Translations under genes and position numbers: made by a program
Shown here: positions 9,881-19,747 of the stretch, piece by piece
How the letters are laid out: each line of letters begins with the position of its first letter
Numbering within the stretch: position 1 is the stretch's first letter
NCBI RefSeq assembly: GCF_005860805.1
Contig: NZ_VCEJ01000002.1
Location: forward strand, 2,030,375-2,094,374
DNA length: 64,000 bases
Origin: Dyadobacter luticola
GTDB taxonomy: Bacteria > Bacteroidota > Bacteroidia > Cytophagales > Spirosomataceae
Direction of reading: 5' to 3'
The notes under the pieces: model-generated
Seen by the model: only the letters and a program-made list of their open reading frames with translations
Databases searched by the model: none
Told to the model about the DNA's origin: nothing

Positions 9881-10010
9881 AAAAAAACGACTTACGGTAT
9901 AAGAAATAAATTAAATTATCCTCAATCACAACATTGTGAATGAAGAAATTATTAAATTTGTAACTGGAAGCCGATGAAAAAAGGTTTTCAATAACGTTGA
10001 GTAAAATCGA

Positions 10011-10045
10011 ACATCCCGGATACATTGCATCCGGGATGTTTTTTT
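10011..10045. terminator. Intrinsic terminator downstream of the YfbU-family gene
   Basis: A perfect 11-bp stem ACATCCCGGAT / ATCCGGGATGT with a 7-base loop is followed by seven T residues on the plus strand. It sits between two convergent genes and could also halt minus-strand transcription, though there is no T-run on that side. Confidence 0.88.
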
Positions 10046-10058
10046 ATATAACGTTCTA

Positions 10059-15927: not shown

Positions 15928-16971
15928 TCAGGACTTATTCCCGTAGAAATCGGGAAGCGGGTTCAGCGCCGGATTTTTACGCTGGTGCCAGTAGGGGTAG
16001 ATCGGCGATTTCTCGCTGGCCGTATCCAGTTTCTTGGTCTGATCAAGAGACAGGTTCCAGCCCACGGCACCCAGGTTTTGTTTCAACTGCTCCTCATTCC
16101 TCGCCCCTACCACAATGTTCGCTACGGTGGGCCTTTGCAGGAGCCAGTTCAAAGCCACTTGCGCAACGGTTTTCTCGGTTTCAGCAGCTACTTCGTCGAG
16201 GACATCTATCAGATTGTAAAAGAAATCTTCCGGTATTGCCGGACCTTCTCCCCCACCCTGTGCAATGCGCGCATCTTCCGGATTAGGCTGATTTCTGCGG
16301 TATTTTCCACTTAACCGACCAGCAGAAAGCGGACTCCAGACGATCGTCCCGACTTTCTGATCGAGGCCCAGCGGCATTAGCTCCCATTCCAGTTCACGAC
16401 TCAGCAGAGAATAATGCGCCTGGTGCGCCACGTACTTGGACCAGCCGTATCTTTCTGATACAGAGAGGGATTTCATCAAATGCCATCCTGAAAAATTCGA
16501 GCAGGCAATGTACCTTACCTTCCCGGCACGGATCAGGTCGTTCAATGCGCTCAACGTTTCTTCCACAGGCGTGTTGCCGTCGAAACCGTGCATGTGGTAA
16601 ATGTCGATATAGTCTGTTTGAAGGCGCTTCAAGCTCTCCTCACAGGATTTAATCAGGTGGAAGCGCGACGAGCCGAAATCATTTGGGTCAGTTCCCATCT
16701 TAAATGTCGCCTTGGTCGACAGGATAATCTTGTCACGCAACCCGATCATGGCTTTTCCCAGAATCTGCTCCGACGCGCCCTGCGAATACACATCAGCTGT
16801 ATCGAAGAAATTGATGCCCGAATCCATGCAGAGGTTCACGAGCCGCGCCGCTTCGTCCGCCTGTGTATTTCCCCATGCTTTGAAAAATTTGCCTTCACCC
16901 CCAAATGTGCCGGTCCCGAAGCTGAGTACCGGTACCTTCAAACCTGAGCCCCCGAGTTGCCTGTATTCCAT
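15928..16971 (-). CDS. Aldo/keto reductase
   Basis: A 347-residue NAD(P)H-dependent aldo/keto reductase of the YghZ/Kvbeta-like group. The catalytic tetrad is intact: D57, Y62, K87 and H128 (FDTADVY, LSTKA, YHMHGFD). The cofactor region includes WSPLSAGRLSGKY and VVGARNEEQL. I chose the ATG at 16971 (MEYRQLGGSGLKV), where the conserved first strand begins; the frame is open 22 codons further upstream but without family similarity. Substrate unknown. It converges on the response regulator with a nine-base gap. A second, distinct AKR lies at 45318. Confidence 0.92.
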   Translation of the reverse strand: MEYRQLGGSGLKVPVLSFGTGTFGGEGKFFKAWGNTQADEAARLVNLCMDSGINFFDTADVYSQGASEQILGKAMIGLRDKIILSTKATFKMGTDPNDFGSSRFHLIKSCEESLKRLQTDYIDIYHMHGFDGNTPVEETLSALNDLIRAGKVRYIACSNFSGWHLMKSLSVSERYGWSKYVAHQAHYSLLSRELEWELMPLGLDQKVGTIVWSPLSAGRLSGKYRRNQPNPEDARIAQGGGEGPAIPEDFFYNLIDVLDEVAAETEKTVAQVALNWLLQRPTVANIVVGARNEEQLKQNLGAVGWNLSLDQTKKLDTASEKSPIYPYWHQRKNPALNPLPDFYGNKS

Positions 16972-17075: not shown

Positions 17076-17121
17076 GGGATTTTTCCGGTTTACGTATAGA
17101 GAAACCCGGTTGAAAAATCCC
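17076..17121. repeat. Long inverted repeat upstream of the aldo/keto reductase
   Basis: GGGATTTTT (17076-17084) pairs perfectly with AAAAATCCC (17113-17121), and inside it CCGGTTT pairs with AAACCCGG with one bulged C. It lies 105 bases upstream of the aldo/keto reductase start and could form in its 5' leader. No function is evident. Confidence 0.45.
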
Positions 17122-17171
17122 TAGCTGATTGAAAATGACGCAATTGCCCCGCGAAAGTCAATTTAGACCAC

Positions 17172-17206
17172 AAAAAAATAACTTCCCTGAAAATCAGGGA
17201 AGTTAT
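17172..17206 (-). terminator. Intrinsic terminator of the candidate small RNA
   Basis: A perfect 13-bp stem, ATAACTTCCCTGA / TCAGGGAAGTTAT, with a 3-base loop, is followed on the minus strand by seven T residues (the A-run at 17172-17178). No coding region upstream of it on the minus strand needs terminating, which is why a noncoding transcript is proposed. Confidence 0.85.
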
Positions 17207-17300
17207 CCGCATTATTTACTCAACGTTCCTCTATTACTTAACCTTTGAACTCGCTCGCCAGATGGGCACCTGGCGTTATGCTTAGCCGTGGTTCAGAATA
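17172..17300 (-). ncRNA. Candidate small RNA of about 130 nt
   Basis: The 488-base gap between the aldo/keto reductase and the Tat-type oxidoreductase subunit holds a promoter-to-terminator unit on the minus strand with no reading frame in it. A promoter-like pair lies just upstream (17306-17339), the proposed 5' end is near 17300, and the transcript would end in a very strong terminator. Inside, GCCAG-GTGCCCAT-CTGGC makes a stable hairpin (17257-17274), enclosed by a possible GAAC/GTTC helix. I do not recognise a known RNA family; it lacks the conserved loops of SRP RNA, RNase P RNA and tmRNA. Evidence is structural only. Confidence 0.45.
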
Positions 17301-17305
17301 TGATT

Positions 17306-17339
17306 CAAATATGCAGTTTCAATTTTGATTGTGTCAAAA
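17306..17339 (-). promoter_or_regulatory. Bacteroidota-type promoter for the candidate small RNA
   Basis: On the minus strand TTTTG (17335-17339) is followed after 21 bases by CATATTTG (17306-17313), close to the Bacteroidota consensus TTTG-N19-21-TAnnTTTG. The only deviation in the -7 box is C for the first T. Confidence 0.5.
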
Positions 17340-17459
17340 GCGATTATCCATCGGTGACAATGATTGAGCGATCGGAAAAATCGGGTTGATTATTGACAGA
17401 TAATGCTATATTTAAGATTAATTTGTGATTAATTGATAACTGACATTAAAACCTTAACC

Positions 17460-17990
17460 ATGAACCGTAGAGAAGCTGTTCAAAGAATAACCTTTCTGTT
17501 GGGGGGAACATTATCCGCACCCCTGATGGCAGGCGTCATGGGTGAAAAGCTGAATTTCGGGCCGTCGCTTGAAATTTCTGATAGCCAGGAAGCCCTGCTC
17601 GCCGATGTGGCCGACGTCATCATACCCACCACAACCACGCCGGGCGCAAAAGCCGCCGGGGCCGAAAAATTCATTACCCGCGTGCTACGTGATTGCTACG
17701 CGATGGAAGATCAAAAGAAATTCTATGACGGGCTAGGCAGAGTAGATGCGCTCAGCAAAGAGGCGTATTCCAAGTCGTTCTCGGCGCTGGACAACACGCA
17801 GAAGATTGAGATCATTAAAAAAACAACGGAATCGGATAAGCCATTTTTCCTGCAAATGAAGGGTTTGGCCGTCACCGGTTATTTCACTTCCGAAATCGGC
17901 GCAACACAAGCATTGGATTACCTTCCAATCCCGGGCAGGTTTGACGGAAGCTGGCCGATGCCGAAAGGGCAAAAAAGCTGGGCCCTCTAA
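17460..17990 (+). CDS. Gluconate 2-dehydrogenase subunit 3 family protein (Tat signal)
   Basis: A 176-residue protein of the gluconate 2-dehydrogenase gamma-subunit family. The N-terminus MNRREAVQRITFLLGG is a twin-arginine-type signal, so the protein is exported folded. The body shows the family block DVADVIIPTTTTPGAKAAG and a C-terminal YLPIPGRFDGSWP. The start ATG at 17460 places the RR pair at residues 3-4; the upstream TTG would only add residues unlike a signal. It is followed after 35 bases by a GMC oxidoreductase, its usual catalytic partner, and the small subunit probably carries that enzyme through the Tat pathway. Confidence 0.9.
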   Translation: MNRREAVQRITFLLGGTLSAPLMAGVMGEKLNFGPSLEISDSQEALLADVADVIIPTTTTPGAKAAGAEKFITRVLRDCYAMEDQKKFYDGLGRVDALSKEAYSKSFSALDNTQKIEIIKKTTESDKPFFLQMKGLAVTGYFTSEIGATQALDYLPIPGRFDGSWPMPKGQKSWAL

Positions 17991-18025: not shown

Positions 18026-19747
18026 ATGGCGAATTTAAATATTGATGCATTAAAAGAAGTCACTTACGATGCCATCGTAATCGGCTCGGGCGTATCTGGC
18101 GGATGGGCGGCCAAAGAGCTGACCGAGAAAGGATTAAAAGTGCTGATGCTGGAAAAAGGCAAGCAGCTGGAACACATTACCGGCTATGAAAACGCCCTGA
18201 AAGCGCCCTGGGAAACCCAATATAACGGCAGACTTACCGTAAAACAAAAAGAAACGCACCCGTTTTTGTCCCGCGATTATCCGTACAATGAGATGACGGA
18301 GAAATACTGGATGAATGATGTGGATGCACCTTACGAAGAAAAGAAAAGGTTCGACTGGTTCCGTCCCAACATTGTCGGTGGCAAATCCATCATGTGGGGC
18401 CGTCAGTCATACCGGCTGAGCGATATCGATTTTGAAGCGAATTTGAAGGATGGCATCGCGGTTGACTGGCCGATCAGATATAAAGACATAGCGCCCTGGT
18501 ATTCTTATGTTGAAAAACACGTAGGTATCTCGGGCGAAAAACTGGGACTTCCTCAGCTTCCGGACAGCGATTTTATCCCGCCAATGGAAATGTATTTTGT
18601 TGAAAAAGAGGTCAGGAAGAGACTTGAAAAAGAATTTCCTGGCAGAAATATGACAATCGGCCGCGTGGCAAACTTGTCGCAGCCGACCAAAATTCAGCTC
18701 GACGGGGGCCGAAGCCCATGCCAGTACCGCAACCGTTGTTCTTATGGTTGTCCTTACGGTGCTTATTTCAGTACCCAGTCGAGTACATTGCCGCCAGCGA
18801 TGAAAACCGGTTTGCTGACATTGAGACCAGATTCGGCCGTACGTGAAATTATTTACGATGGTAAAAAACAAGGCGGACGTGCCACTGGGGTACGCGTGGT
18901 TGACACGACGACTTTGCAGGAAAAAGAATATTTCGCAAACATTATCTTCGTCTGCGCCAGCGCAATCGCTTCTGCCGCACTGCTTTTGAACTCAACTTCC
19001 GACCGTTTCCCGAATGGTATGGGCAATGATTCCGGCGAGCTGGGACATAACCTGATGGACCACCACTTCCGCACCGGCGCAAGCGGTACCTGGGAAGGTG
19101 ATCTGGACAAGTATTATTTCGGACGCCGTGCAAACGGAATTTACATTCCACGCTACCGCAACATCGGAAACGATAAGCGCGACTACCTGCGCGGCTTTGG
19201 CTATCAGGGTGGCGGCGGTCGTCAGGGATGGCAGCGCAATGTGGCTGAACTGGCTTTCGGTGCTGATTTTAAAGAAGAACTGACCACGCCAGGCGCATGG
19301 ACCATGGGCTTCGGAGGTTTTGGCGAAACATTGCCGGCCCATGAAAACCACATGTACCTGAGCAAGGAGAAAAAAGATAAGTTCGGTATCCCGACTGTTG
19401 TCTTCGACGCGGATCTTCGTGAAAACGAGAAGAAAATGCGGAAGGATATGATGAACGATGCAGCCGAAATGTTGGAAAAATCGGGCGTGAAGAATGTGAA
19501 GACTTACGATAACGGTTCATACCTCGGTATGGCGATCCACGAAATGGGAACTGCCAGAATGGGACGCGACCCGAAAACATCGGTTTTGAATGGTAACAAC
19601 CAGCTTCACTCGGTGAAAAATGTGTTCGTGACAGACGGAGCCTCCATGACTTCCGCATCCTGCGTAAACCCGTCGCTAACTTATATGGCGATGACGGCCC
19701 GCGCGGTGGATTTTGCTGTGAAAGAATCGAAGAAGAAGAATATCTGA
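18026..19747 (+). CDS. GMC family oxidoreductase (FAD-dependent sugar/alcohol dehydrogenase)
   Basis: A 573-residue flavoprotein of the glucose-methanol-choline family. The N-terminal FAD-binding motif is VIGSGVSGGWAAKELTEKG (about residues 17-35), followed by NIVGGKSIMWGRQSYRL. The C-terminal GMC region has GMAIHEMGTARMGRDPKTSVL and VFVTDGASMTSASCVNPSLT. A CRNRCSYGCPYG cysteine cluster (about 236) is typical of the gluconate 2-dehydrogenase large-subunit subgroup. It has no signal peptide, consistent with co-export with the Tat-tagged small subunit encoded just upstream. No cytochrome c subunit follows, so the electron acceptor is unclear. Substrate not determinable. Confidence 0.93.
   Translation: MANLNIDALKEVTYDAIVIGSGVSGGWAAKELTEKGLKVLMLEKGKQLEHITGYENALKAPWETQYNGRLTVKQKETHPFLSRDYPYNEMTEKYWMNDVDAPYEEKKRFDWFRPNIVGGKSIMWGRQSYRLSDIDFEANLKDGIAVDWPIRYKDIAPWYSYVEKHVGISGEKLGLPQLPDSDFIPPMEMYFVEKEVRKRLEKEFPGRNMTIGRVANLSQPTKIQLDGGRSPCQYRNRCSYGCPYGAYFSTQSSTLPPAMKTGLLTLRPDSAVREIIYDGKKQGGRATGVRVVDTTTLQEKEYFANIIFVCASAIASAALLLNSTSDRFPNGMGNDSGELGHNLMDHHFRTGASGTWEGDLDKYYFGRRANGIYIPRYRNIGNDKRDYLRGFGYQGGGGRQGWQRNVAELAFGADFKEELTTPGAWTMGFGGFGETLPAHENHMYLSKEKKDKFGIPTVVFDADLRENEKKMRKDMMNDAAEMLEKSGVKNVKTYDNGSYLGMAIHEMGTARMGRDPKTSVLNGNNQLHSVKNVFVTDGASMTSASCVNPSLTYMAMTARAVDFAVKESKKKNI

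Follow-up and report, generated by a model that had tools for sequence, protein, structure and literature searches.

A terminator-adjacent seed shared by predicted small RNAs of Dyadobacter and its complement in exopolysaccharide mRNA leaders

Introduction

Most of what has been established about regulation by small RNAs (sRNAs) in the Bacteroidota comes, to our knowledge, from gut Bacteroides. According to those parts of the published account on which we draw (PMC11697453), the FopS sRNAs of Bacteroides thetaiotaomicron are 14 paralogues whose ‘R1’ seed lies in a 5' stretch that is single-stranded; this seed pairs with translation-initiation regions, and SusC-like glycan transporters are repressed. 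The same parts describe RbpB as an RNA-binding protein involved with FopS/GibS, state that the FopS structure has been deposited in Rfam, and present OmrA/B, Qrr and LhrC as multicopy sibling sRNAs of other phyla (PMC11697453).

Here we analyse a locus of the soil bacterium Dyadobacter luticola that lies in a window of 64,000 nucleotides (the whole stretch of DNA under study, to which all positions refer). An initial annotation had placed on the minus strand a promoter-to-terminator unit for an unrecognised noncoding sRNA, an interpretation that gains support from the promoter, from a conserved core and from a covarying terminator. Judging from sequence comparison, we consider it probable that the stretch encodes one of several trans-acting sRNAs that share a seed and that would pair with exopolysaccharide mRNAs at the initiation region, with repression as the probable outcome.

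Results

Architecture and conservation of the predicted sRNA

The elements of the unit are as follows:

17335-17339, minus strand: -33 promoter element TTTTG, recognised by its sequence and in the upstream regions of other loci; a 21-nt spacer separates it from the -7 element
17306-17313, minus strand: -7 promoter element CATATTTG; at a comparable distance, 24 loci have CATATTTG, GATATTTG or a closely similar sequence
17172-17300, minus strand: predicted sRNA of about 125-129 nt, its 5' end placed from the promoter
17256-17275, minus strand: 5' hairpin with CGCCAG/CTGGCG arms, variable in sequence and predicted in most homologues
17210-17243, minus strand: nearly invariant core of 34 nt, GGTTAAGTAATAGAGGAACGTTGAGTAAATAATG
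17217-17227, minus strand: proposed seed AACGUUGAGUA, an 11-mer within the core, from sequence comparison
17172-17208, minus strand: intrinsic terminator, with its stem at 17176-17208 and its T-run at 17178-17172

The 13-bp perfect hairpin that had been put forward is present, extended by flanking pairs and followed by seven T, and the Bacteroidota-type promoter described upstream of it is there as well. The internal hairpin also exists, although its arms occupy 17256-17275 and not 17257-17274 as first given, and the description of the region as devoid of reading frames needs tempering, in that one 40-aa ORF (17090-17212) overlaps it at the 40-aa threshold. Four terminator-like sites occur between 16900 and 17500, against 0.6 ± 0.8 in shuffled sequences, and the folding of 139 nt of the minus strand gives a z-score of -3.1, with 1 of 200 shuffles equally stable. 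With that one small frame as the exception, the unit combines the attributes of an sRNA: a promoter and a terminator of its own, as read from the sequence, no ORF, and conservation.

The label ‘unrecognised’ holds, because a search of Rfam 15 returned nothing at the gathering score, the sole matches lying far below it. A tRNA or tmRNA identity was rejected by search. We also rejected 6S RNA, which is defined by a long imperfect duplex with a central bubble: the consensus fold here consists of the terminator stem only, with no Rfam match. Among the literature matches listed we found no description of Dyadobacter sRNAs or of the seed motif, and a literature search for small regulatory RNAs of Cytophagales gave no match.

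BLAST matches to the stretch were obtained in 24 of the 59 genomes searched (its own included), every one of them Dyadobacter, and the D. luticola genome holds a second copy at C1:2366148. An exact 21-nt piece of the core recurs in 22 stretches among 84,980 species, all from Dyadobacter. Mean pairwise identity over 24 aligned sequences is 0.97 in the 34-nt core, 0.86 in the terminator and 0.50 in the 5' domain. Absence of the hairpins from close relatives, which would have refuted the initial annotation, is not what we see: the terminator hairpin is found in 24 of 24 sequences, its 14 pairs showing no broken cell and 5 of them two-sided compensatory changes, and the hairpin of the 5' domain is predicted in most, within a domain that is about 50% identical. 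A covariance search in related genomes had been recommended, and with a model built from the 3' part of the sRNA it yielded matches in 59 of the 222 genomes of the family; these include 46 of the 48 Dyadobacter genomes (32 at more than 90 bits), G030 and G028 being the two Dyadobacter genomes with no match to the model. We read 24 places among the weaker matches, and the exact 11-mer precedes the hairpin in 22; one other has a diverged form of the word and one lacks it. The matches in other genera come from 13 genomes, of which four were read: AACGTTGAGTAAA precedes the terminator in three and is absent from the fourth.

Genomic context

The unit is flanked by three genes:

17460-17990, plus strand: gluconate 2-dehydrogenase subunit 3-like protein (PF13618), the divergent neighbour
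18026-19747, plus strand: GMC oxidoreductase, the next gene on the divergent side
15928-16971, minus strand: aldo/keto reductase (PF00248), downstream, in a neighbourhood that is not conserved

The reductase lies on the same strand as the stretch and some 200 nt downstream of it (terminator at 17172, gene start at 16971), an arrangement that would suit a cis-acting leader or attenuator of this gene. In a comparison of 23 loci (the window and 22 others), however, only 13 have the reductase in their downstream flank, and it is the divergent gluconate 2-dehydrogenase subunit 3-like gene that is constant, being found in 20; two loci end on that side with no gene called, and one has another ORF called there. 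The next downstream gene is on the opposite strand in 6 of the 23 loci, a different same-strand gene follows in two, and in two more there is none within the locus. We did not find, then, the conserved same-strand downstream gene that would mark a cis-regulatory leader. Since the downstream gene varies, we regard the sRNA as an independent unit; the leader reading is largely refuted, and we hold it to be highly improbable.

Between the sRNA and the divergent gene (17339-17450, approximately) more blocks are conserved in relatives; those upstream of the sRNA promoter include TTTTCCG and GCTCATCGCATTT and are perhaps the site of a common regulator.

A seed word common to dissimilar units

The seed 11-mer AACGTTGAGTA occurs 10 times in the D. 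luticola genome, where several of its sites directly precede terminators and the open frames that span the sites extend to 102 codons at most. The 48 Dyadobacter genomes contain the word 528 times and its reversed control 124 times, the word being the more frequent of the two in each of the 48. In 247 genomes of the class we saw by eye, without a total, no steady excess over the control outside the family. The word looks enriched in genus g50, and in one genome of the class-wide search (G290) it is contained in a repeat array.

We read 101 seed-word sites in ten genomes (all sites of nine genomes, and 7 of the 16 in G112) and sorted them by an automatic rule whose classes overlap. A terminator-like hairpin lies downstream in the sense direction at 39 sites, 38 of which are 3-11 nt away from it; at 25 sites such a hairpin lies downstream of the seed complement. 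The complement stands before the ATG of an ORF of at least 80 aa at 16 sites (12 of these ORFs having at least 275 aa), as against a single site for the seed itself. Twenty-four sites fit no class; 8 are within an ORF of at least 120 aa.

Five sequence families, assigned by pattern, account for 30 of the 39 sense sites. The family of the window sRNA is present in 8 of the ten genomes; a second family (a TAAATTTG-like box, the seed, a terminator) was recognised by pattern in 9 and by eye in the remaining one, G016. A third occurs in 7 genomes, and the last two occur in 2 genomes each. Of the 39 sense sites, 26 have a -7-like match no more than 230 nt upstream, a figure that has no chance control, and several sense sites are 26-66 nt past a stop codon and may belong to 3'UTRs. 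The window contains another seed-sharing candidate:

9953-10046, plus strand: second seed-sharing sRNA candidate, with box TAAATTTG at 9953-9960, seed AACGTTGAGTA at 9993-10003 and a terminator at about 10011-10046

This candidate stands downstream of a 194-aa ORF. Besides the two copies of the window family and the unit at 9953-10046, the D. luticola genome has one more family of seed-sharing units. In four other Dyadobacter genomes we noted tandem, related seed-bearing units about 160 nt apart, in which ATTTTCAT or TTTTTCAT precedes AACGTTGAGTAAAG and a GC-rich terminator follows.

The seed complement, TACTCAACGTT, was also seen between a stop codon and a terminator at seven loci. In the D. 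luticola genome and in one other, the ORFs concerned have matching C-termini and the complement follows their stop codon at 2-3 nt; in five further genomes the distance from the stop is 14-26 nt. Such sites are possibly sponges or 3'UTR targets, a role at which we can only guess.

Complementary sites in front of exopolysaccharide genes

Three complement sites lie within 6 kb of one another in genome G002, 5-13 nt before the starts of genes for a UDP-glucose dehydrogenase, a Poly_export protein and a bacterial sugar transferase. The transferase (Pfam assignment Bac_transf), which we take to be WcaJ-like, was chosen for testing because of its motif in G002, and the best homologue in each of the 48 Dyadobacter genomes was inspected: CTCA[AG]CG is found 6-20 nt before the ATG in 46 of the 48 (43 CTCAACG, 3 CTCAGCG). 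All of the 30 best homologues have the site at 6-12 nt from the ATG (27 CTCAACG, 3 CTCAGCG); 14 of 15 further homologues, G029 being the exception, have it at 6-20 nt, and those of G024 and G025, in loci whose choice was not blind, at 14 nt. The two best homologues without it are those of G021 and G029; the leader in G021, which has tandem sites, contains TTACTCAAC twice, with the CG absent. Second wcaJ-like homologues carry the site in 3 of the 5 read and lack it in 2, and in genus g50 none of nine transferase homologues has it. When 30 leaders were aligned on the site, so that its own seven columns were bound to be conserved, the columns 2-30 nt upstream were only 30-63% conserved. Tandem pairing sites were noted in three wcaJ leaders, with two copies of CTCAACG in G030 and in G023.

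In the D. luticola genome the wcaJ leader and the sRNA match perfectly over 11 bp, with a calculated energy of -18.6 kcal/mol that none of 100 shuffles equalled. For 22 leaders set against a fixed 25-nt core the mean is -15.8 kcal/mol, compared with -9.2 for shuffles; the weakest pairing is that of G013, for which 8 of 100 shuffles were equally good. CTCAGCG is permitted by G-U pairing with the seed. A conserved seed is matched by conserved complementary sites in mRNAs; in predicted folds of the 24 sequences the seed would be partly open, with a mean unpaired probability of 0.66. We saw no co-variation between seed and target sites, and G030 and G028 keep the wcaJ site though they gave no match to the covariance model.

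Around wcaJ, in 390 kb from ten genomes, 28 of 71 CTCAACG sites stand before an ORF start, as do 3 of 71 sites of the reverse complement (Fisher p ~3e-7), counts that are not blind, because in most genomes these loci were chosen after clusters of pattern matches had appeared. Five other 7-mers in the same 390 kb give 4/44, 4/44, 0/20, 2/25 and 1/42, and in 240 kb of other Dyadobacter DNA the count for CTCAACG is 1/44 (p ~2e-6 against the wcaJ loci). The figures for CTCAACGT with in-frame starts around wcaJ, which are not blind either, are 19/38 versus 0/38. On the other hand, the pattern ACTCAACGTN{2,16}ATG shows no clear excess over the 48 whole genomes, with 383 sites versus 367 for the reverse complement (a count that includes the seed-sharing sRNAs themselves) and 320 for the reversed control; a regulon would therefore be narrow. 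Among close homologues, the exact site is kept by 3 of 7 Poly_export, 1 of 4 UDP-glucose dehydrogenase and 1 of 7 Wzc-like genes, and by 3 of 3 homologues of what is presumably an epimerase-like gene. In three Dyadobacter genomes TACTCAACGTT is located 28-31 nt ahead of the start of a gene whose product begins with MTEK (an acyltransferase, PF01757, in one of the loci).

These counts also bear on the idea that AACGTTGAGTA/TACTCAACGTT is a DNA site for a transcription factor and that no RNA pairing is involved. Its AACGTT core is indeed palindromic, and intergenic DNA contains the word in either orientation. A factor site would not, however, be expected to show the orientation bias that we find, with complement exceeding seed by 16 to 1 before start codons and by 28/71 to 3/71 around wcaJ; the sense copies are mostly 3-11 nt before terminators, an odd position for such a site; and in 3 of 30 wcaJ leaders the place of CTCAACG is taken by CTCAGCG, a change that G-U pairing tolerates. 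We consider a transcription-factor site quite unlikely. The orientation of the sites, their proximity to start codons, the common seed and the conserved transferase site together favour RNA-RNA pairing that would block initiation.

RNA-binding proteins of the genome

A search for Hfq (PF17209) gave no match in the D. luticola genome, the same search being positive in 5 of 14 control genomes, and an Hfq-dependent sRNA was rejected on this ground. RRM_1 gave one match (C5:383091-383300), in a protein of 200-odd residues with a glycine-, arginine- and serine-rich tail. It is a candidate partner of the sRNA; RbpB of Bacteroides is an RRM protein.

That a single RRM protein was found, and Hfq was not, could suit a different function for the invariant core, namely the titration of an RNA-binding protein such as this one, with no action by pairing; the invariant stretch is, moreover, longer than the 11-nt seed. 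The mRNA leaders, however, carry the complement of the seed and not the same sequence, and therefore a common protein site does not explain both leaders and sRNA. We judge protein titration to be unlikely.

Discussion

Pairing with mRNA leaders is the reading that we prefer, and we envisage it as follows. An sRNA of about 125 nt would start near 17300 and end at the Rho-independent terminator at 17172 on the minus strand, with the seed AACGUUGAGUA immediately preceding the terminator, as it does in other sRNA-like units of the genus. The partner of the seed in mRNAs would be (U)ACUCAACGU(U), chiefly at sites closely upstream of exopolysaccharide gene starts, and the conserved target would be the WcaJ-like initiating sugar transferase, with its site 6-20 nt before the ATG. 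Bearing in mind that such a pairing would overlap the ribosome footprint, translation initiation would most likely be blocked, so that repression seems the more plausible outcome than activation. Complementary sites in 3'UTRs may be extra targets or sponges, and the RRM protein might assist the sRNA.

More tentatively, and as a suggestion that we rate as possible rather than probable, the word AACGUUGAGUA and its complement UACUCAACGUU might underlie a post-transcriptional network that extends throughout the genus, operates with no Hfq detected and sets exopolysaccharide output. At least five dissimilar sRNA families would contribute the same seed in front of their terminators, the leaders of exopolysaccharide mRNAs would offer the complement beside the start, and the complements in 3'UTRs, before terminators, would serve as sponges or targets.

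The named seed, the target sites and an exopolysaccharide phenotype are directly testable in laboratory strains from soil and plants. After FopS, Dyadobacter is a second candidate for many one-seed sRNAs in a Bacteroidota genome. Our analysis further suggests that genome sequence alone can suffice to find terminator-adjacent seeds common to sRNAs that differ in other respects.

OmrA/B, Qrr and LhrC resemble the Dyadobacter units in that several sRNAs act on overlapping targets, but they belong to other phyla, and most of the Dyadobacter units are not, by pattern, full-length paralogues. As regards FopS, in the portions of its description used here, the seed is in a 5' single strand, whereas in Dyadobacter the core is on the 3' side and the seed directly 5' of the terminator; FopS are paralogues, whereas the Dyadobacter seed is common to units that are dissimilar outside it; and SusC-like targets there contrast with predicted targets in exopolysaccharide synthesis here. 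Because seed position and targets differ, we do not claim membership of FopS/GibS. As far as the same portions extend, FopS/GibS of Bacteroides is nonetheless the nearest described system and one that would work alike: both are found in Bacteroidota, and both have, in Dyadobacter by prediction, several sRNAs with one seed, glycan-related targets at initiation regions and an intrinsic terminator. The RNA-binding protein RbpB is involved in that system, and the D. luticola genome has one RRM gene.
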